Part shown: positions 43,019 through 54,276 of the stretch, piece by piece | How the letters are laid out: each line of letters opens with the position of its first letter | How positions within the stretch are numbered: position 1 is the first letter of the stretch | Origin: Parvularcula bermudensis HTCC2503 | Lineage (GTDB): Bacteria > Pseudomonadota > Alphaproteobacteria > Caulobacterales > Parvularculaceae | Reading direction: 5' to 3' | Length of the DNA: 64,000 bases | NCBI RefSeq assembly: GCF_000152825.2 | Contig: NC_014414.1 | Location: 1,178,001 to 1,242,000 of the forward strand | The notes under the pieces: model-generated | The model's database searches: none | Seen by the model: only the letters and a program-made list of their open reading frames with translations | What the model was told of the DNA's origin: nothing | Program-made: the position numbers and the translations under genes

Positions 43019-44080
43019 TCAAAGGGCCGCGAGAATCGCCGAGGTCGCCGCCGCCGTATCGGCATCGCCGCCGAGATCCTTCGTCCGTAGACCTTGCTTC
43101 AAGACGGTCGACACCGCCGTCTCGATACGCTCCGCCGCGGCATCCGCCTTCAGCCCATGGCGCAGCAACATGGCCGCAGACAGGATCGTTCCGATGGGAT
43201 TGGCGATCCCCTGACCGGCAATGTCGGGGGCCGACCCGTGAATGGGCTCGAACAGACCCGGCGTGTCAGGGGTCCCAAGACTGGCTGACGGCGCAAGGCC
43301 GATCGATCCGACGATGGCGGACAATTCATCGGACAGGATGTCCCCAAACAGATTTTCCGTCACCACCACGTCAAAGCTTGCCGGTTTGGTGACGAGGTGC
43401 ATGGCCATGGCGTCCACCAGTACATGGTCGACCGTGACGGTCGGATAGTCCTTGGCAACGTCGTCGACAACGGCTCGCCACAAACGTGAGGTGGCAAGGA
43501 CATTTGCTTTGTCCACAGAGGTCAGGCGCCCGTTACGGCCCTTGGCCGCCTCGAAGGCAACGCGGGCCACTCGGTCAACCTCTTCACGGCTATAGGGCAT
43601 GATATCGCTGGCGACATCGGTCCCTTCGCGGTGGTCGCCGAAATAGACCCCGCCGGTCAGCTCCCTGACGATAAGAATATCTGTGTCCGCAACGATATCC
43701 CTCCTCAATGGAGAGGCGGCCTCAAGACCTTCGAACAATTTCGAGGGCCGAAGATTGGCAAACAACTCCAGCTCCTTACGAAGGCCCAACAGGCCCTGTT
43801 CGGGCCGCGGGGCGCCTTGATGCCGCGCTGCCTCGTCGTATTTCGGGCCGCCCACGGCCCCCAGCAATATCGCGTCAGCCGACACGCAGGATTTGAGCGT
43901 TTGCTCAGGGAGCGGATTGCCCGTCGCATCGATTCCTGCGCCGCCAAAGGGGCATCGGTCGATGGCGAGCGAAAGACCCGCATCGGGGGCAACCGCCGTC
44001 AGGACACTGATTGCTGCGTCGGTCACTTCGGGCCCAATCCCGTCGCCGGGTAGGATTGTCAACCGCACGGTACGGCTCAT
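43019..44080 (-). CDS. leuB: 3-isopropylmalate dehydrogenase LeuB
   Basis: 353 residues from ATG 44080, with GGGAGAAG upstream. NAD-dependent decarboxylating dehydrogenase pattern: LTILPGDGIGPEV, GLLGLRKELELFANLRP, YSREEVDRVARVAFEAA, and the ATENLFGDILSDELSAIVGS-type motif with Asp metal ligands. It makes 2-oxoisocaproate in leucine synthesis. It is the last gene of the cluster. Its start overlaps the leuD stop by four bases. Confidence 0.95.
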   Translation of the reverse strand: MSRTVRLTILPGDGIGPEVTDAAISVLTAVAPDAGLSLAIDRCPFGGAGIDATGNPLPEQTLKSCVSADAILLGAVGGPKYDEAARHQGAPRPEQGLLGLRKELELFANLRPSKLFEGLEAASPLRRDIVADTDILIVRELTGGVYFGDHREGTDVASDIMPYSREEVDRVARVAFEAAKGRNGRLTSVDKANVLATSRLWRAVVDDVAKDYPTVTVDHVLVDAMAMHLVTKPASFDVVVTENLFGDILSDELSAIVGSIGLAPSASLGTPDTPGLFEPIHGSAPDIAGQGIANPIGTILSAAMLLRHGLKADAAAERIETAVSTVLKQGLRTKDLGGDADTAAATSAILAAL

Positions 44081-44655
44081 CGATGCTTCTCCCGTTCGAA
44101 CTCTTCGATCGCCGGCAGGGCCAGGAGGAGGGCGCCGAGCGGATCTGTTCCCTCTAACAAACATTGCCGGGCGAATGGCTCGGTCTCGAACGGAATGACG
44201 TGATTGCCGAACCGCAATTCGGCGGCTTCGAGGTCAATCGTCACCTCGCCGCCTTCATCCTCAAGGAGTCGGGCGAGAATGGCCTCGTCCACCTCAACGG
44301 GGAGAAGGCCGTTCTTCGTGGCATTTGACTTGAAAATATCGCCGAAGGACGTCGAGATGACAGCTCGGACGCCATAGGCGGTCAGAGCCCAGGCGGCATG
44401 CTCGCGGGAGCTTCCGCAACCGAAATTATCCCCGGCCACGATGATCTTGTGGGTTTCCCGGTCGACCGTATTCAGAACATGATCGGTCGGCTCATCCTTG
44501 TCGGTGAAGCGCCAATCGCGGAACGCGGCCTCGCCCAGCCCATCGCGATCCGTGGTGGTGAGGAACCGGGCGGGGATGATCTGGTCGGTGTCGATATTGG
44601 TCGTCGGCAAGCCAATGGTCCGGCTTGTGACGACACGAAAGGGGGCAAAACTCAT
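44077..44655 (-). CDS. leuD: 3-isopropylmalate dehydratase small subunit LeuD
   Basis: 192 residues. The opening [18 protein letters not shown] and the swivel-domain [20 protein letters not shown] are diagnostic of LeuD. With LeuC it forms the isomerase that converts 2- to 3-isopropylmalate. ATGA-type overlaps with leuC upstream and leuB downstream show translational coupling. Confidence 0.95.
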
Positions 44656-46051
44656 GCGGCGCGTCCTTCCAGCATGCTGGCATCGGCGATCATGCCTTTG
44701 ACCGCCGATGCGGCGGCGGTCGCGGGGCTGGCCAGAACCGTCCGTACCCCCTCGCCCTGACGCCCTCGGAAATTCCGATTCGAGGTGGAGACAACAATCT
44801 CGCCAGGGTTACCGCGATCACCGTTCATCGCAATACACATGGAGCACCCCGGCTCTCGCCATTCGGCCCCGGCGGTCATGAAGACCTGATCGAGCCCCTC
44901 GGCTTCGGCGGCGCGTTTGACGGCTTCGGACCCAGGCACCACCAACATCGTCACATGATCGGCAATCCGCCGTCCCTTGAGGATATTGGCCGCTGCGCGC
45001 AGATCCTCAAGGCGACCGTTCGTGCACGACCCCACGAAGACTCGATCCACCTTTCGCGCCGCGAGAGGGTCGCCTGGTTGGAAGCCCATATAGTCAAGCG
45101 CGGTCCGAGCGGCGTCATTGGCGGGTGCCGGCACGTCGCCCGTGGCGGGCAATGCTTCATGCGGACTGACGCCATAGGTCACCATGGGCCGGATGGCGGC
45201 GGCATCGACGACGATTTCCTTATCGAATTCCGCACCATCATCGGTGTGGAGGTCCCGCCACGCGGTCACGGCCCCCTCCCAATCGGTCGGGGCCCCGGGA
45301 CGCCCGGTCAAATAGGCAAAGGTGGTCTCGTCGGGGGCCACCATTCCCGCGCGCGCGCCCGCCTCAATCGACAGGTTACACAGGGTCATCCGCCCTTCCA
45401 TCGATAGGGCCCGCACGGCCTCGCCGGCATATTCGATGACATGTCCCGTGCCGCCATCCATGCCCAGATGGGCGATCACTGTCAGCGCCATATCCTTGGC
45501 CGTCACGCCCTCCGCACAGGTCCCTTCGAACATGACGCGCAGGGTTCGCGGCTTACGCTGCAACAGACACTGGGTCGCCAGAACATGACCAACCTCCGTG
45601 GTGCCGATGCCAAAGGCCAATGCCCCGAACGCGCCATGGGTGGAGGTGTGACTGTCACCACAGACGACGACTGCCCCCGGATGGGTCCGACCGAGTTCGG
45701 GACCCACCATATGAACGATGCCGCGGCGGTCATCGCCGAGGTCGAGGAGGGTGATGCCGTGGCGGGCACAATTCCGCCGCAAGGCGGCCACCTGTTTCTC
45801 GGCGGCCGCGGTGGCGTAGGGCAGGCGCCCCTCGGCGTCCGCCGGCAGGGTGGGGACGGAATGGTCGATGGTTGCCAAGGTGCGGTCGGGGCGCCGGACC
45901 TTCAGATCCCGCTGGTCGAGCACGGTAAAGGCCTGCGGGCTCGTCACCTCATGGACGAGGTGCAACCCGACATGCAGGATCGCCGGGCTGTCGACCGTCT
46001 CGGGGCGGACCAAATTCCGCTCCCACACCTTTTGGAACAGGGTCTTGGCGG

Positions 46052-46055
<4 letters not shown>
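44652..46055 (-). CDS. leuC: 3-isopropylmalate dehydratase large subunit LeuC
   Basis: 467 residues, aconitase family. Cluster-binding Cys are in [13 protein letters not shown] and in [11 protein letters not shown], together with [20 protein letters not shown]. It binds a 4Fe-4S cluster and works with LeuD. It overlaps leuA upstream and leuD downstream by four bases each. Confidence 0.96.
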
Positions 46056-47236
<1,181 letters not shown>

Positions 47237-47359: not shown

Positions 47360-48646
47360 TCAGTAATTTGCCACTTCCGGCTCCAGGCCTTCGGCCCGCA
47401 GCGCTTCGACGATACGATCCATATGCGCAGGGCCCGTCGCCTCGACCGAAATATCGAGATGGGTCTGCTTCGCTGGAAGATCGTTGAACACCTTATGATA
47501 GCTCACATCAATAACGTTTCCGCCCGCCGCGCCGATCGCCGCGGACACCCGGGTCAATTGGCCCGGGACATCCATCAGCGGCACCCGAAGGCGGGCAAGG
47601 CGTCGTTGCCTGGCCAGATCCCGCATGAGGATCGACGACAACAGCCGCGGGTCGATATTACCGCCACAGACAATCGTGCCGACCGCGTGACCTTCGAAGA
47701 GATGCGGATGGGCCAGCAGGGCTGCAAGACCCGCCGCCCCCGCGCCTTCGGCCAAGGTTTTTTGGGTCATCAATAAAAGCGATAGCGACCGCTCCAATGC
47801 CCGCTCATCGACGGTGACAATCTCGTCGACAAGGCGCGCGACGACCTCACGGGTAAACCGCCCCGGATCGCAGACGGCGATGCCCTCGGCCAAAGTCATG
47901 CCGCCGCAGGGCGCGCTTTCGTTGCGAACCGCATTGGCCATGCCGGGATAGAGCGCGGCTTGCACGCCGATGATGCGGATGTCTGGACGCATTTCCTTCG
48001 CGACGGCGGCCATGCCGGCAATCAGCCCCCCCCCGCCAATGGGGATCACCAAGGTATCGATCTCCGGGGCCTCGCACAGCATTTCCTTGGCGATGGTCCC
48101 TTGCCCGGCGGCGACATAGGGGTCATCGAACGGGTGGACGAGGGTTTTGCCCTCCTCCTCGACCTGTCGGATGGCCTCGGCATGGGCGGCTTCGAAATCC
48201 GTCCCGTGAAGAATCACTTCGGCCCCAAAGCGCTTGGTTTCCTCGACTTTCACGGAGGGCGTTTGCGCGGGCATCACAATGGTCGCGCGAATACCGAGCA
48301 GTTCGGCGTGACGGGCGAGGCCTTGGGCGTGATTGCCCGCTGACGCGGCCACGACCCCTGATTGGCGTTCGGCATCGCTCAATGACAGTAATTTCGCCAA
48401 AGCGCCCCGTTCCTTAAAGGCGCCGATATATTGCAGATTCTCGTATTTCAGCCAAAGACGGCAATTCGTCAGGGCCCCGAGCTTTCGGCTCGGCAAGCAG
48501 GGCGTTTCGCGGATTTCCTGCCACGCCGGATCGGTCTTATCGACGATGGCCCGCCATTCCTGGTCGCTGAGCGAGAAGGCCGCGCGAGGAGAGGGCGCGG
48601 CCGCCTCGCCGCGTACAGCGGGCTCAGGATCAGATGACAGTGGCAT
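47360..48646 (-). CDS. ilvA: Threonine ammonia-lyase (threonine deaminase) IlvA
   Basis: 428 residues from ATG 48646, preceded by GGCAGGAG; it overlaps the end of the ilvM-like gene by 17 bases. PLP Lys78 is in YIGAFKERGA, the phosphate loop in IPIGGGGLIAG, and the C-terminal about 75 residues form one ACT-like domain (LRVPLMDVPGQLTRVSAAIG). It makes 2-oxobutyrate for isoleucine. A single ACT-like domain is the short type of regulation. Confidence 0.93.
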   Translation of the reverse strand: MPLSSDPEPAVRGEAAAPSPRAAFSLSDQEWRAIVDKTDPAWQEIRETPCLPSRKLGALTNCRLWLKYENLQYIGAFKERGALAKLLSLSDAERQSGVVAASAGNHAQGLARHAELLGIRATIVMPAQTPSVKVEETKRFGAEVILHGTDFEAAHAEAIRQVEEEGKTLVHPFDDPYVAAGQGTIAKEMLCEAPEIDTLVIPIGGGGLIAGMAAVAKEMRPDIRIIGVQAALYPGMANAVRNESAPCGGMTLAEGIAVCDPGRFTREVVARLVDEIVTVDERALERSLSLLLMTQKTLAEGAGAAGLAALLAHPHLFEGHAVGTIVCGGNIDPRLLSSILMRDLARQRRLARLRVPLMDVPGQLTRVSAAIGAAGGNVIDVSYHKVFNDLPAKQTHLDISVEATGPAHMDRIVEALRAEGLEPEVANY

Positions 48647-48944
48647 GGGGGATCTCCTGCCACCGGCTGGGCTTCTCCCGACTACGCCGCTCAAGGCGCA
48701 CCGACCGGACATTGTAGAGCCGTTCGATCTGTAGGCGCAGCGTCTCAACCGACCGGTGCTTGCCGTATGGGCTCACTTGCACACGGGTTTCGACCCCACC
48801 CTCGACTTCTTCGACCAAGAGAGAGCGCACCGACCAGCCGCGCTGTTCGATGACCGTCCAAATCCGCCTCAGGGTTCCGTTCACATCGTCGCTCTCGATC
48901 GTCATGGTCTCGATCGTGCCGCGTTGGTTGAAGGTTTCCACCAT
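48630..48944 (-). CDS. ilvM: Acetolactate synthase small subunit, ACT-only (IlvM/IlvN-like)
   Basis: 104 residues. A single ACT-like fold (MTIESDDVNGTLRRIWTVIE, then GWSVRSLLVEEVEGGVETRV) directly follows the ilvB stop with no gap. Small size, without the C-terminal domain of IlvH, matches IlvM-type subunits. It would bind and tune the large subunit. The assignment rests on position and fold, as sequence motifs are weak. Confidence 0.75.
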   Translation of the reverse strand: MVETFNQRGTIETMTIESDDVNGTLRRIWTVIEQRGWSVRSLLVEEVEGGVETRVQVSPYGKHRSVETLRLQIERLYNVRSVRLERRSREKPSRWQEIPHATVI

Positions 48945-50648
<1,704 letters not shown>

Positions 50649-50666: not shown

Positions 50667-51689
50667 TCAGCCTTGGTCGGCATTATTGGCGCCGGCTTTC
50701 AGCCAGCTCATCTTGCTGCGCAGATCGCGCCCGACCTCTTCGATGGGGTGGTCGAGGTCCCGCTGCAGCATGGCATTGTAAGCGGGTTTCCCCGCCTTGT
50801 TTTCGAGGATCCAGTTACGGGCGAAGGTCCCGGTCTGAATGTCGCGGAGGACCGCCCGCATCCGTTCCCGCGCCGTGTCATCGATGACGCGCGGGCCCGA
50901 CACCAGATCGCCGTAAATCGCGGTCTCGGAGATGAATTCGTGCATTTTGGCCAGCCCGCCCTCATTCAGCAGATCCACGATCAGCTTCAGCTCGTGCAAG
51001 CACTCATAATAGGCCAATTCCGGCGGATATCCCGCCTCGACCAGCGTTTCAAAGCCCATCACGACCAGTTCCGTCGCGCCGCCGCAGAGCACGGCCTGCT
51101 CGCCGAACAGGTCGGTTTCGGTCTCGTCCTGGAAGGTGGTTTCGAACACCGCCGCGGCGGTCCCGCCGATCGCATCGGCATAATGGAGCGCTTTGGCGGT
51201 GGCGTCGCCGGTGGCGTCCTGGTGGACGGCAAACAGGCAGGGGACGCCGCGTCCGCGCTCATATTCGCGGCGCACCAGATCGCCGGGCCCCTTGGGCGCG
51301 ACCAGGATCACATCGACATCTTTGGGCGGGGTGACTTGGCCGTAAATCACCGAGAAGCCGTGGGCGAACATCAGGGTATCCCCCGCCTTCAGATTGGGGG
51401 CGATCGCCTCCTCGAAGATTTGGGCGTGGGCCATGTCAGGGGCGGTCAGGGCGATATAGCCGGCCTCGGCCGCGGCCTCCGCAGGGCTCATCACGCGGAA
51501 GCCATCCTCGCTTGCCTTTTTGTCCGACGGGCCCCCGGGGCGGGCGCCGATAATCACGTCGAGGCCTGAATCCTTCATGTTCAGCGCGTGGGCACGGCCC
51601 TGGCTGCCATAGCCGATGACCGCAACGGTCGTGCCCTTAAGGGCGGGGGTGACATCGTCTTTCGTAAAGGCGCGAAGATTGGTCGCCAT
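50667..51689 (-). CDS. ilvC: Ketol-acid reductoisomerase (class I)
   Basis: 340 residues, class I length. The NADPH-binding loop is [19 protein letters not shown], then [12 protein letters not shown]. Mg ligands are in [19 protein letters not shown] and [13 protein letters not shown]. It reduces and rearranges acetolactate. Six bases separate it from ilvD upstream. Confidence 0.96.
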
Positions 51690-51695
51690 GGTGTC

Positions 51696-53357
51696 TTATC
51701 CTTCCTGGAGAGTTGTGGCGCCGCGGCTCGCCGAGCCGACCAACGCGCGATATTTGTCGAAATAGCCGCCCTGGGGCGCCTTTGGGGTTGGGGTATAATT
51801 CTCTTTGCGGGCCTGCCAGTCGATGGCGGCATCGATACGCCGCCCTTCGGCGTCGATCGAAATCCGGTCGCCCTCCTGCAACAGGCCGATGGGGCCGCCC
51901 ACCGCCGCCTCGGGGGAGATGTGACCGATAACGAAGCCATGACTGGCGCCTGAAAATCGGCCGTCGGTCAACAAGGCGACCTTTCCTGCAAGGCCCTGTC
52001 CGGCGAGGGCCGCTGTGACGCCGAGCATCTCTCGCATCCCCGGGCCGCCTTTGGGGCCTTCATTGCGGATCACGACGACATCGCCCTCGGCAATGGTGCC
52101 GGCCTGAACCGCCGCGAAGCAATCCTCCTCACATTCGAAGATCCGCGCCGGCCCCTCAAAGGCGCCGTCGCCATAGCCGGCGGTTTTCAGCACGGCGCCG
52201 TCGGGCGCCACGTCGCCATAGAGGATGCGCAGCCCGCCGGTGGGCTTGAGCGGCGCGTCCACAGGGCGCAGCACGTCGGTGTCATCGCTCGGCGGCGCCT
52301 CGGCCAACTCGGCAAAGAGAGAGCGTCCGCTCGTCGTGGGAATATCTTTCAGCGCGCCCGCTTCCATCAGCATTTTGCCGAACCGGCGATTGCCCCCGAC
52401 GGCGAACAGATCCTGCGCCAGGTAACGCCCCCCCGGTTTGAGGTTCGCGATCACCGGCGTGGTCCTCGAAAGCTGGTCGAACAGATCGATCGAGAAGGGG
52501 ACCTTCGCCTCCGCGGCGATAGCGGCGAGGTGCAGCACCGCATTGGTGGAGCCGCCGGAGGCGACAACGGCACAGACGGCATTGTGGAGGCTCTCGGGCG
52601 AGACATAGGTGCGGGCGGTGGTGCCAAGGGCATTCTCGGCCACCAATTGGCCACAGCGCCGAGCCTCGATCGTTTTGTCCGGATGGAGGGCCGGGGGGTC
52701 GCCGGCGCCCATGGGGGCAAGGCCGAGAAACGCCATGGCCATCGCCATAGTGTTCGCCGTGAACTGGCCACCGCACGCCCCGGCACCAGGGCAAGCCGCG
52801 CGTTCCACCGCCGACAATTCGTCGCCATCGATCCGGCCAAGGCCATAGGCGCCGACAGCTTCGAAGGCATCCTGAATGCTGATATCCTGGCCTTTGTGAC
52901 AGCCGGGGGCGATCGTGCCGCCGTAGAAAACGATCCCGGGGATATCGAGTCGTGCCAGGGCCATCGCTGCGGCCGGAATGGTCTTGTCGCATCCCACCAG
53001 CACGATGGCCGCATCGAGCGCGTGGCCGCGCACGGCTAGTTCGATGGAGTCGGCGATCACCTCCCTCGACATCAGGCTGGCCCGCATCCCTTCGTGGCCC
53101 ATCGTAATGCCGTCGGAGACGACGATGGTCCCGAACTCGACCGGCCAGCCGCCCCCCTCAACGACACCGGCGCGGACGTCTTCGCCCAGGGCGCGCAAAT
53201 GCATATTGCAGGGAGTGACCGAGGCGTAGGTGTTGATGATCCCCACCATCGGCTTGTCGAAATCGGCGTCCGACATGCCCGTCGCGCGGAGCATGGCGCG
53301 GGCAGCGGCCCGGGCCGGTCCCTTGGTGATGGCGTCGCTTCGTTTGTTTTGGGTCAT
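51696..53357 (-). CDS. ilvD: Dihydroxy-acid dehydratase IlvD
   Basis: 553 residues. Cluster Cys residues are in [13 protein letters not shown] and in [20 protein letters not shown], and the [20 protein letters not shown] motif is diagnostic. It is the first enzyme gene of the cluster and follows the leader with attenuator-like structure at 53393-53554. Confidence 0.95.
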
Positions 53358-53392: not shown

Positions 53393-53423
53393 AGATAATA
53401 AAAAAGCTCCCTTTCGGGAGCTC
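53393..53423 (-). terminator. Attenuator terminator of the ilv leader
   Basis: On the minus strand AGCTCCC-GAAA-GGGAGCT is followed by TTTTTATTA, a textbook intrinsic terminator 35 to 60 bases before ilvD. A GGGGAGC copy just after the leader stop (near 53453-53459) can pair instead with its GCTCCC arm, providing an antiterminator. Confidence 0.85.
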
Positions 53424-53458
53424 GCCGGGGCCGCGTTTGGCCGTCCGAAGTCGCTCCC

Positions 53459-53554
53459 CTACGGGCTTTCGCTAATAACGAGTACGAGGACGACAGGAAG
53501 GACCGCCGCATTGTGCGTTCCCTTGGATCCATCAATGAACAACGTGTCGGTCAT
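53459..53554 (-). CDS. ilvL: ilv leader peptide (attenuation)
   Basis: A 31-codon frame from ATG 53554 to TAG 53459. Its C-terminal part is AVLPVVLVLVISESP, packed with Val, Leu and Ile codons (GTC, CTT, GTC, GTC, CTC, GTA, CTC, GTT, ATT). It ends shortly before the terminator hairpin and the ilvD start. This is the organisation of ilvGMEDA and leu leaders in other bacteria. Stalling of the ribosome at these codons when charged tRNAs are scarce would free the antiterminator. The composition makes chance unlikely, but translation has not been shown. Confidence 0.8.
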   Translation of the reverse strand: MTDTLFIDGSKGTHNAAVLPVVLVLVISESP

Positions 53555-53564
53555 CGCTCACAGC

Positions 53565-53594: not shown

Positions 53595-53817
53595 CCATTA
53601 CCGCAACGCCCCTTCGGGCGATGCTGCGTGATGGGCGTATCACTCTCGGCGCGCTCAAGGCAACAGAAATTGCGGCTCCCGCCGTGCCATTGCCTTTATA
53701 TGGTCTCAGAGGCGCGGTAGGGATGGCCGAAGTGACTGATGAAAAGCACTTATTTTGCGCCCTAGGGAACTACCGTCGGGATCCTCCTGTTCGGCAGGTT
53801 CGTAGACAGGAACTCCC

Positions 53818-54276
53818 ATGACGTTTGAGCCGAAAAAGTCGTCCATCGACCGGTCAATGGGCCCCGCCGTTGGCCGAAGGGCGGAGGGGGGAGGCGGCGT
53901 GCCCACCTCCAATTCGGCGGCGGACTACACTGTCTTGATTGCTGAGGACGAAGCCGTCGTGGCCATGGATCTCGATCTGTTGGCCCAGGAATCGGGGGCA
54001 ACAACCGTCATCGTGGCCCCAACCGTCGCCGAAGCGGGCATCGCGGTGCGGGCCAATGCGATCGATTTTGCGATCCTGGATATTTCCCTGACCGATGGGG
54101 ATATTTATGAGGTCGCCGATGAGTTGAGGGACCGGGGCGTCCCCATGGCCTTCCATTCGGCCCATGCGAACCCCGATGAGCTGTCCAGCCGATATCCCTC
54201 GGCGCATATCTGCGGCAAACCGTCCAGTCCGCATATTCTCCAGGATCTTTTACGTCTCGCGATCCACCGCGTTTGA
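53818..54276 (+). CDS. Single-domain response regulator (REC)
   Basis: 152 residues. After about 35 low-complexity Gly/Ser residues comes a REC domain: acidic pair in VLIAEDEAVVAMD, phosphorylated Asp88 in FAILDISLTDG, Ser/Thr in AFHSAHAN and Lys near 134 in CGKPSS. There is no output domain. It may act by protein binding, like the general stress-response receivers of alphaproteobacteria. No histidine kinase is next to it. Confidence 0.85.
   Translation: MTFEPKKSSIDRSMGPAVGRRAEGGGGVPTSNSAADYTVLIAEDEAVVAMDLDLLAQESGATTVIVAPTVAEAGIAVRANAIDFAILDISLTDGDIYEVADELRDRGVPMAFHSAHANPDELSSRYPSAHICGKPSSPHILQDLLRLAIHRV

Follow-up and report, generated by a model that had tools for sequence, protein, structure and literature searches.

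Does the short reading frame in front of ilvD in Parvularcula bermudensis HTCC2503 belong to a transcription attenuator, and which genes would such an element control? The locus lies in the window, the whole 64,000-nucleotide stretch of DNA analysed here, with the frame, ilvD and the genes behind it on the minus strand. We conclude, with a probability of about 0.93, that branched-chain amino acid synthesis is controlled here by ribosome-mediated transcription attenuation of the classical kind. The element would very probably switch the operon on when isoleucine, valine and leucine run short.

Anatomy of the leader

The leader consists of a reading frame rich in branched-chain codons, an intrinsic terminator and a segment that can pair with one arm of that terminator. 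The features are as follows.

53459–53554, minus strand: leader peptide open reading frame, ATG start, 31 codons encoding 31 amino acids, MTDTLFIDGSKGTHNAAVLPVVLVLVISESP
53474–53503, minus strand: control codons GTC CTT CCT GTC GTC CTC GTA CTC GTT ATT, read from the sequence
53438–53459, minus strand: segment 2, 5′ arm of the antiterminator, GGGGAGCGACTTCGGACGGCCA, placed by its duplex with segment 3
53416–53433, minus strand: segment 3, 3′ arm of the antiterminator and 5′ arm of the terminator, CGGCCCCGGCGAGCTCCC, placed by duplex energy
53404–53423, minus strand: intrinsic terminator hairpin (segments 3:4), GAGCTCCC-GAAA-GGGAGCTT followed by TTTTATTA

The C-terminal end of the 31-codon frame reads ...AVLPVVLVLVISESP. 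The control codons specify five valines, three leucines, one isoleucine and one proline, with Val, Leu or Ile at nine of ten consecutive positions; segment 1 is located inside this stretch. A frame ending with at least eight V/I/L in ten residues and followed by a terminator occurs only once in the 64-kb window, at the leader. The terminator hairpin has a calculated energy of −14.1 kcal/mol, its U-run reaches to about 53400, and 46 nt separate it from the start of ilvD (53357). The motif GGGGAGC (53459–53453), which shares the G of the leader's TAG stop, is complementary to GCTCCC (53421–53416), and the 2:3 duplex has an energy of −24.1 kcal/mol. The 2:3 and 3:4 pairings are mutually exclusive. 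The original prediction had described both a 31-codon Val/Leu/Ile frame followed by a terminator hairpin and a GGGGAGC segment able to pair with the GCTCCC arm, and both were found, with the terminator running from 53423 to 53404.

In an alignment of the genus, the ATGA(A/C)C start context of the leader frame aligns with the relatives L006, L009 and L022; in L021 the context at the aligned ATG is ATGAGC. The leader ATG has no clear Shine-Dalgarno sequence before it, and a sigma-70 consensus was not found either. Upstream of the frame, at 53596–53623 (minus strand), relatives in the genus share a conserved block of the form TGTTGCG, about 16 nt, and TGTTAG/TGATA. The block is degenerate in the window's own sequence and is possibly a promoter candidate. 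Further upstream, the product of the divergent gene at 53818–54276 (plus strand) is a response regulator that has a receiver domain and PhyR-like matches, and not an IlvR-type LysR regulator.

The operon behind the leader

Nine genes follow the leader in tandem, in the order ilvD-C-B-M-A-leuA-C-D-B.

51696–53357, minus strand: ilvD, dihydroxy-acid dehydratase, the first structural gene (NF002068, 715.9 bits, cut-off 644)
50667–51689, minus strand: ilvC, ketol-acid reductoisomerase (family profile)
48945–50648, minus strand: ilvB/ilvG, acetolactate synthase large subunit, AHAS-II type (NF006524, 860.5 bits, cut-off 738)
48630–48944, minus strand: ilvM/ilvN-like small ACT subunit (weak matches below cut-offs, E = 4.5e-7)
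47360–48748, minus strand: ilvA, threonine ammonia-lyase (NF005600, 548 bits, cut-off 496)
46052–47236, minus strand: leuA, 2-isopropylmalate synthase (family profile)
44652–46055, minus strand: leuC, 3-isopropylmalate dehydratase large subunit (family profile)
44077–44655, minus strand: leuD, 3-isopropylmalate dehydratase small subunit (position and recognised sequence)
43019–44164, minus strand: leuB, 3-isopropylmalate dehydrogenase (position and recognised sequence)

The true start of ilvA is probably near 48628. The leuD gene matches the genes at the leuD position of relatives. The ilvDCBMA order of the original prediction is present, but it gave only part of the operon, which also includes leuACDB. 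Judged by their annotation, the downstream genes make the very amino acids that the leader would sense.

The acetolactate synthase gene differs within the family. The genus of the window and G029 carry an AHAS-II type ilvB (65–78% identity; comparison with relatives L127–L135). In most other Parvularculaceae genera ilvB is about 46% identical, with the same ilvD and leader in front. These identities point to an apparent replacement of ilvB inside the family, within a conserved operon.

Conservation among relatives

The ilvD loci related to that of the window (L001–L027 and L031–L091, some of them duplicates) span Parvularculaceae, Maricaulis, Robiginitomaculum and Brevundimonas and hold 80 distinct leaders. 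A V/L/I-rich frame, defined as at least seven V/I/L in ten residues, is located upstream of ilvD in 87 of the 88 related loci, as compared to none of 22 unrelated ilvD loci, among which the top V/I/L score is 5. Representative leader ends are as follows.

Genus example: ...SVLLVLLITESP
Family example: ...VVVVLLISPFRGAAMEPAR
Maricaulis: ...LLLLVLVLLITSSITGVA
Robiginitomaculum: ...VSLIIVVVLTGAGSTV
Brevundimonas: ...LILSVLLGLLAGAAWTLTT

Behind the leader, the loci tested in Maricaulis, Robiginitomaculum and Brevundimonas again carry ilvD, ilvC and ilvB, and also leuA and leuC where the contig extends far enough. The sole exception in the related group, L027 (G059), carries a terminator upstream of ilvD and no Val/Leu/Ile run; the leader may have been lost or replaced there.

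Folding detected a terminator in 79 of the 80 distinct leaders; the remaining one, L016, has a terminator that the script's criteria missed. The antiterminator was assessed as the pairing of the segment after the control codons with the 5′ arm of the terminator, and in 70 of 79 leaders no more than 5 of 100 shuffles equalled it; the window's leader is outside these 70. The cognate 2:3 pairing has a mean energy of −24.2 kcal/mol versus −17.8 kcal/mol when the arms are swapped between clades, and the arms have therefore changed together. Within clades (Brevundimonas-type leaders; other Parvularculaceae) compensatory changes were few and not significant. There are mutual constraints among the peptide and arms 2, 3 and 4, and only the swaps between clades are informative.

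A covariance model, R1, was trained on 11 family members outside the window's genus. It matches the window at 53399–53504 on the minus strand (G000:C1:1231399-1231504, E = 4.5e-4), the sole match at E ≤ 1 in its own genome (one contig, 2,902,643 bases). In the class-wide sample it located one further case, in another family (L187), where inspection showed a leader ending ...DLLSLVVLVLIIIPSKGAEPEPAS, then a terminator and ilvD. The model is narrow, and its matches in 2 of 289 genomes do not estimate prevalence.

A leader was also observed on the Pirellulaceae MAG contig JANQLU010000060.1 (L091, 5806–5932). It ends ...ILSLLVILVLVIIPEVRLL, has a strong antiterminator and a terminator, and precedes a 53%-identical ilvD on this planctomycete-labelled contig. 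Horizontal transfer or misbinning would account for it.

Ribosome position and the choice of structure

The probability of the terminator, P(terminator), was calculated for the window's leader with the ribosome at successive positions. These values are equilibrium calculations with an assumed ribosome footprint and ignore kinetics. With the ribosome far upstream of the control codons, P(terminator) is 0.9–1.0. On the Pro-Val-Val-Leu-Val-Leu codons it falls from 0.2 to 0.0, and on the last Val and then the Ile it is 0.5 and 0.9. One and two codons past the Ile the values are 0.7 and 0.2, and from there to the stop P(terminator) is 1.0. A stall at the single Ile codon is thus ambiguous in silico. 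Without a ribosome P(terminator) is 0.74.

The same dependence is seen at the stage when segment 4 has not yet been made. In the window, segment 3 is then sequestered with a probability of 0.82 for the stalled ribosome versus 0.19 for the ribosome at the stop, a difference reached by 1 of 60 shuffles. Over 79 leaders the mean sequestration is 0.74 stalled versus 0.30 at the stop, and the mean difference is 0.45 versus 0.09 in shuffles. In these models, the choice of structure depends on whether the ribosome is located on the control codons or at the stop.

The classical ilv attenuator organisation that had been proposed for this locus agrees with both the conserved leaders and the alternative pairing that depends on ribosome position. 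The two checks suggested with it gave the same answer: prediction of the leader RNA fold returned a 2:3 versus 3:4 switch in silico, and comparison of homologous leaders showed the codon run and hairpins to be conserved in close and distant relatives.

Codon choice

The control stretch shows a marked choice among synonymous codons. The expectation was taken from the codon use of ilvD at the same locus; the loci are related, and the counts are not independent. In four clades the control codons are enriched in GTA, CTC/CTT and ATT and depleted in CTG, TTG and ATC. The skew is most extreme in Brevundimonas and relatives (observed versus expected: GTA 51 versus 0.7, CTT 76 versus 2.0, ATT 47 versus 2.8, CTG 23 versus 173). 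Robiginitomaculum shows only a weak rise in GTA, and a rise in CTA is confined to Parvularculaceae and Robiginitomaculum.

Similar codons are seen in the ilvB leaders of other alphaproteobacteria, namely ATT CTC GTA CTC GTA in L137, CTT CTT ATT GTA in L193, ATT CTT GTA in L195 and CTG GTA CTT ATT in L188. These are a handful of cases picked by eye, with much shorter frames. An automated scan of 30 class-wide loci returned no ilvB leader at the thresholds used; such leaders were missed because they are shorter, and a few are visible by eye.

A genome-wide search found single tRNA genes for Val (anticodons UAC, GAC and CAC) and for Leu (GAG, UAG, CAG, CAA and UAA). With this set, GTA would presumably be decoded by the UAC isoacceptor and CTC/CTT by the GAG isoacceptor. 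Among the 41 tRNA matches in the genome, none reads as tRNA-Ile(GAU) or tRNA-Ala(UGC); these genes are probably located in the rRNA operons and were masked or missed.

According to the selective-charging theory (Elf et al. 2003, as discussed in PMC1183508), control codons are chosen for charging-sensitive isoacceptors. The codon pattern fits such isoacceptor-selective sensing, and causes at the RNA level may also contribute. A wider proposal, to which we give somewhat less than even odds, is that the branched-chain attenuators of alphaproteobacteria form a set in which selection has fitted the control codons to particular isoacceptors (GTA, CTC/CTT, ATT) while architectures and first genes vary. 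In this proposal the ilvD-first sensor would govern the whole ilv-leu operon, and some lineages would lack a protector hairpin.

Proposed mechanism and alternatives

We infer a promoter just upstream of the leader, translation of the frame, ribosome stalling within it and a response of the operon to starvation. Transcription of the leader by RNA polymerase and translation of its 31-codon peptide would proceed together. If charged tRNA-Val, -Leu and -Ile are plentiful, translation would run on to the stop, where the ribosome would cover segment 2; segments 3 and 4 would pair, and transcription would stop before ilvD. A shortage of charged tRNA-Val or -Leu (perhaps also -Ile) would stall the ribosome in the Val/Leu run and leave segment 2 free to pair with segment 3. 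The terminator would then not form, and ilvD-C-B-M-A, probably with leuA-C-D-B, would be transcribed. If the leader is not translated, a 1:2 structure would tend to form in the window's RNA, and the terminator would again be possible.

Taken by itself, the window's leader gives weak statistics. Its energy as a whole does not separate it from shuffles (minimum free energy z-score −1.24, uninformative), and its 2:3 duplex energy is equalled by 32 of 100 shuffles. This would suit a terminator that acts partially and constitutively, or one that ends a small upstream transcript, with a short reading frame there by coincidence. The comparative evidence is decisive, and it makes such a coincidence very improbable: the V/L/I frame, segment 2 and the terminator recur before ilvD in several families, the arms co-vary, and the arrangement is absent upstream of unrelated ilvD genes. 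A riboswitch, a ppGpp riboswitch or a T-box, that is, an RNA sensing a metabolite or a tRNA with the frame incidental, would look alike at first, as a terminator-coupled leader before a biosynthetic operon. However, an Rfam scan of the leader, permissive thresholds included, gave no riboswitch or T-box match and no family at the gathering score, only matches at chance level. Moreover, the constraint is on the V/I/L codons, with their marked synonymous choice, and on arms 2, 3 and 4, rather than on an aptamer. We regard a sensing RNA as more improbable still.

Closer to the preferred reading is attenuation without a protector hairpin, in which the ribosome alone is the switch and an untranslated leader reads through. 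A selected 1:2 protector was considered and is unsupported across the relatives: their 1:2 pairing does not exceed that obtained with random synonymous codons (p ≤ 0.05 in 2 of 80 leaders, median p 0.80). Several relatives also have a ribosome-free P(terminator) near 0 (for example 0.01 in L002, 0.00 in L017 and 0.02 in L059). The window's leader, however, favours the terminator both without a ribosome and with one far upstream (0.74 and 0.9–1.0, as above), and 1:2 can form in it, as the textbook scheme has it; equilibrium folding also takes no account of kinetics. We consider the variant unlikely, though clearly less so than the two preceding explanations, and some lineages may work in this way.

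Comparison with known systems

The element has no Rfam match, its reading frame is below the usual gene-calling length, and it stands before nearly the whole branched-chain pathway. It occurs in several alphaproteobacterial families and offers about 80 distinct natural leaders for testing the selective-charging theory outside E. coli; the codon pattern most deserves further study. No description of an ilvD-first whole-pathway attenuator or of its codon choice was found in the literature searched, which included few subscription papers.

The original prediction had set the classical ilv organisation against an ilvDCBMA order in an apparent alphaproteobacterium. An attenuated ilv operon is no surprise in this class, as the ilvBN (ilvIH) attenuator of Caulobacter crescentus is already published (Tarleton et al. 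1994, summarised in PMC4117421). As described there, the Caulobacter leader likewise combines a coding sequence with Ile/Val codons and a rho-independent terminator in front of branched-chain genes, but it precedes ilvB, whereas the window's leader precedes an ilv-leu operon with ilvD first. Leader peptides upstream of alphaproteobacterial ilvB/ilvIH were also predicted comparatively by Vitreschak et al. 2004, as far as citations in PMC1273637 and PMC2573895 describe that work. It concerns the same leader-peptide attenuation of proteobacterial branched-chain operons, and those citations place the leaders upstream of ilvB/ilvI. The ilvB leaders of other alphaproteobacteria (e.g. L137 and L195) have frames much shorter than the ilvD leaders. 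In Corynebacterium, a uORF attenuator gives leader-peptide control of ilvBNC (PMC10272879, PMC11857589); phylum and gene order differ, and the likeness drawn here is one of description.

The E. coli ilvL leader of ilvXGMEDA resembles the window's in its V/I/L-rich peptide, its U-run terminator and its alternative pairing, and that operon is also of the AHAS-II type with ilvD and ilvA downstream. It contains neither ilvC nor leu genes, whereas the window's operon has both. Common descent with the ilvL leader was considered and rejected: a collinear alignment scores 58 versus a shuffle maximum of 37, yet leuL (54), ivbL (54) and thrL (51) score about equally, and the likeness is therefore generic. 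The mechanism is an ordinary one, as in E. coli ilv and Caulobacter ilvBN, and the ilvD-first version in front of the whole pathway is a new case of it.
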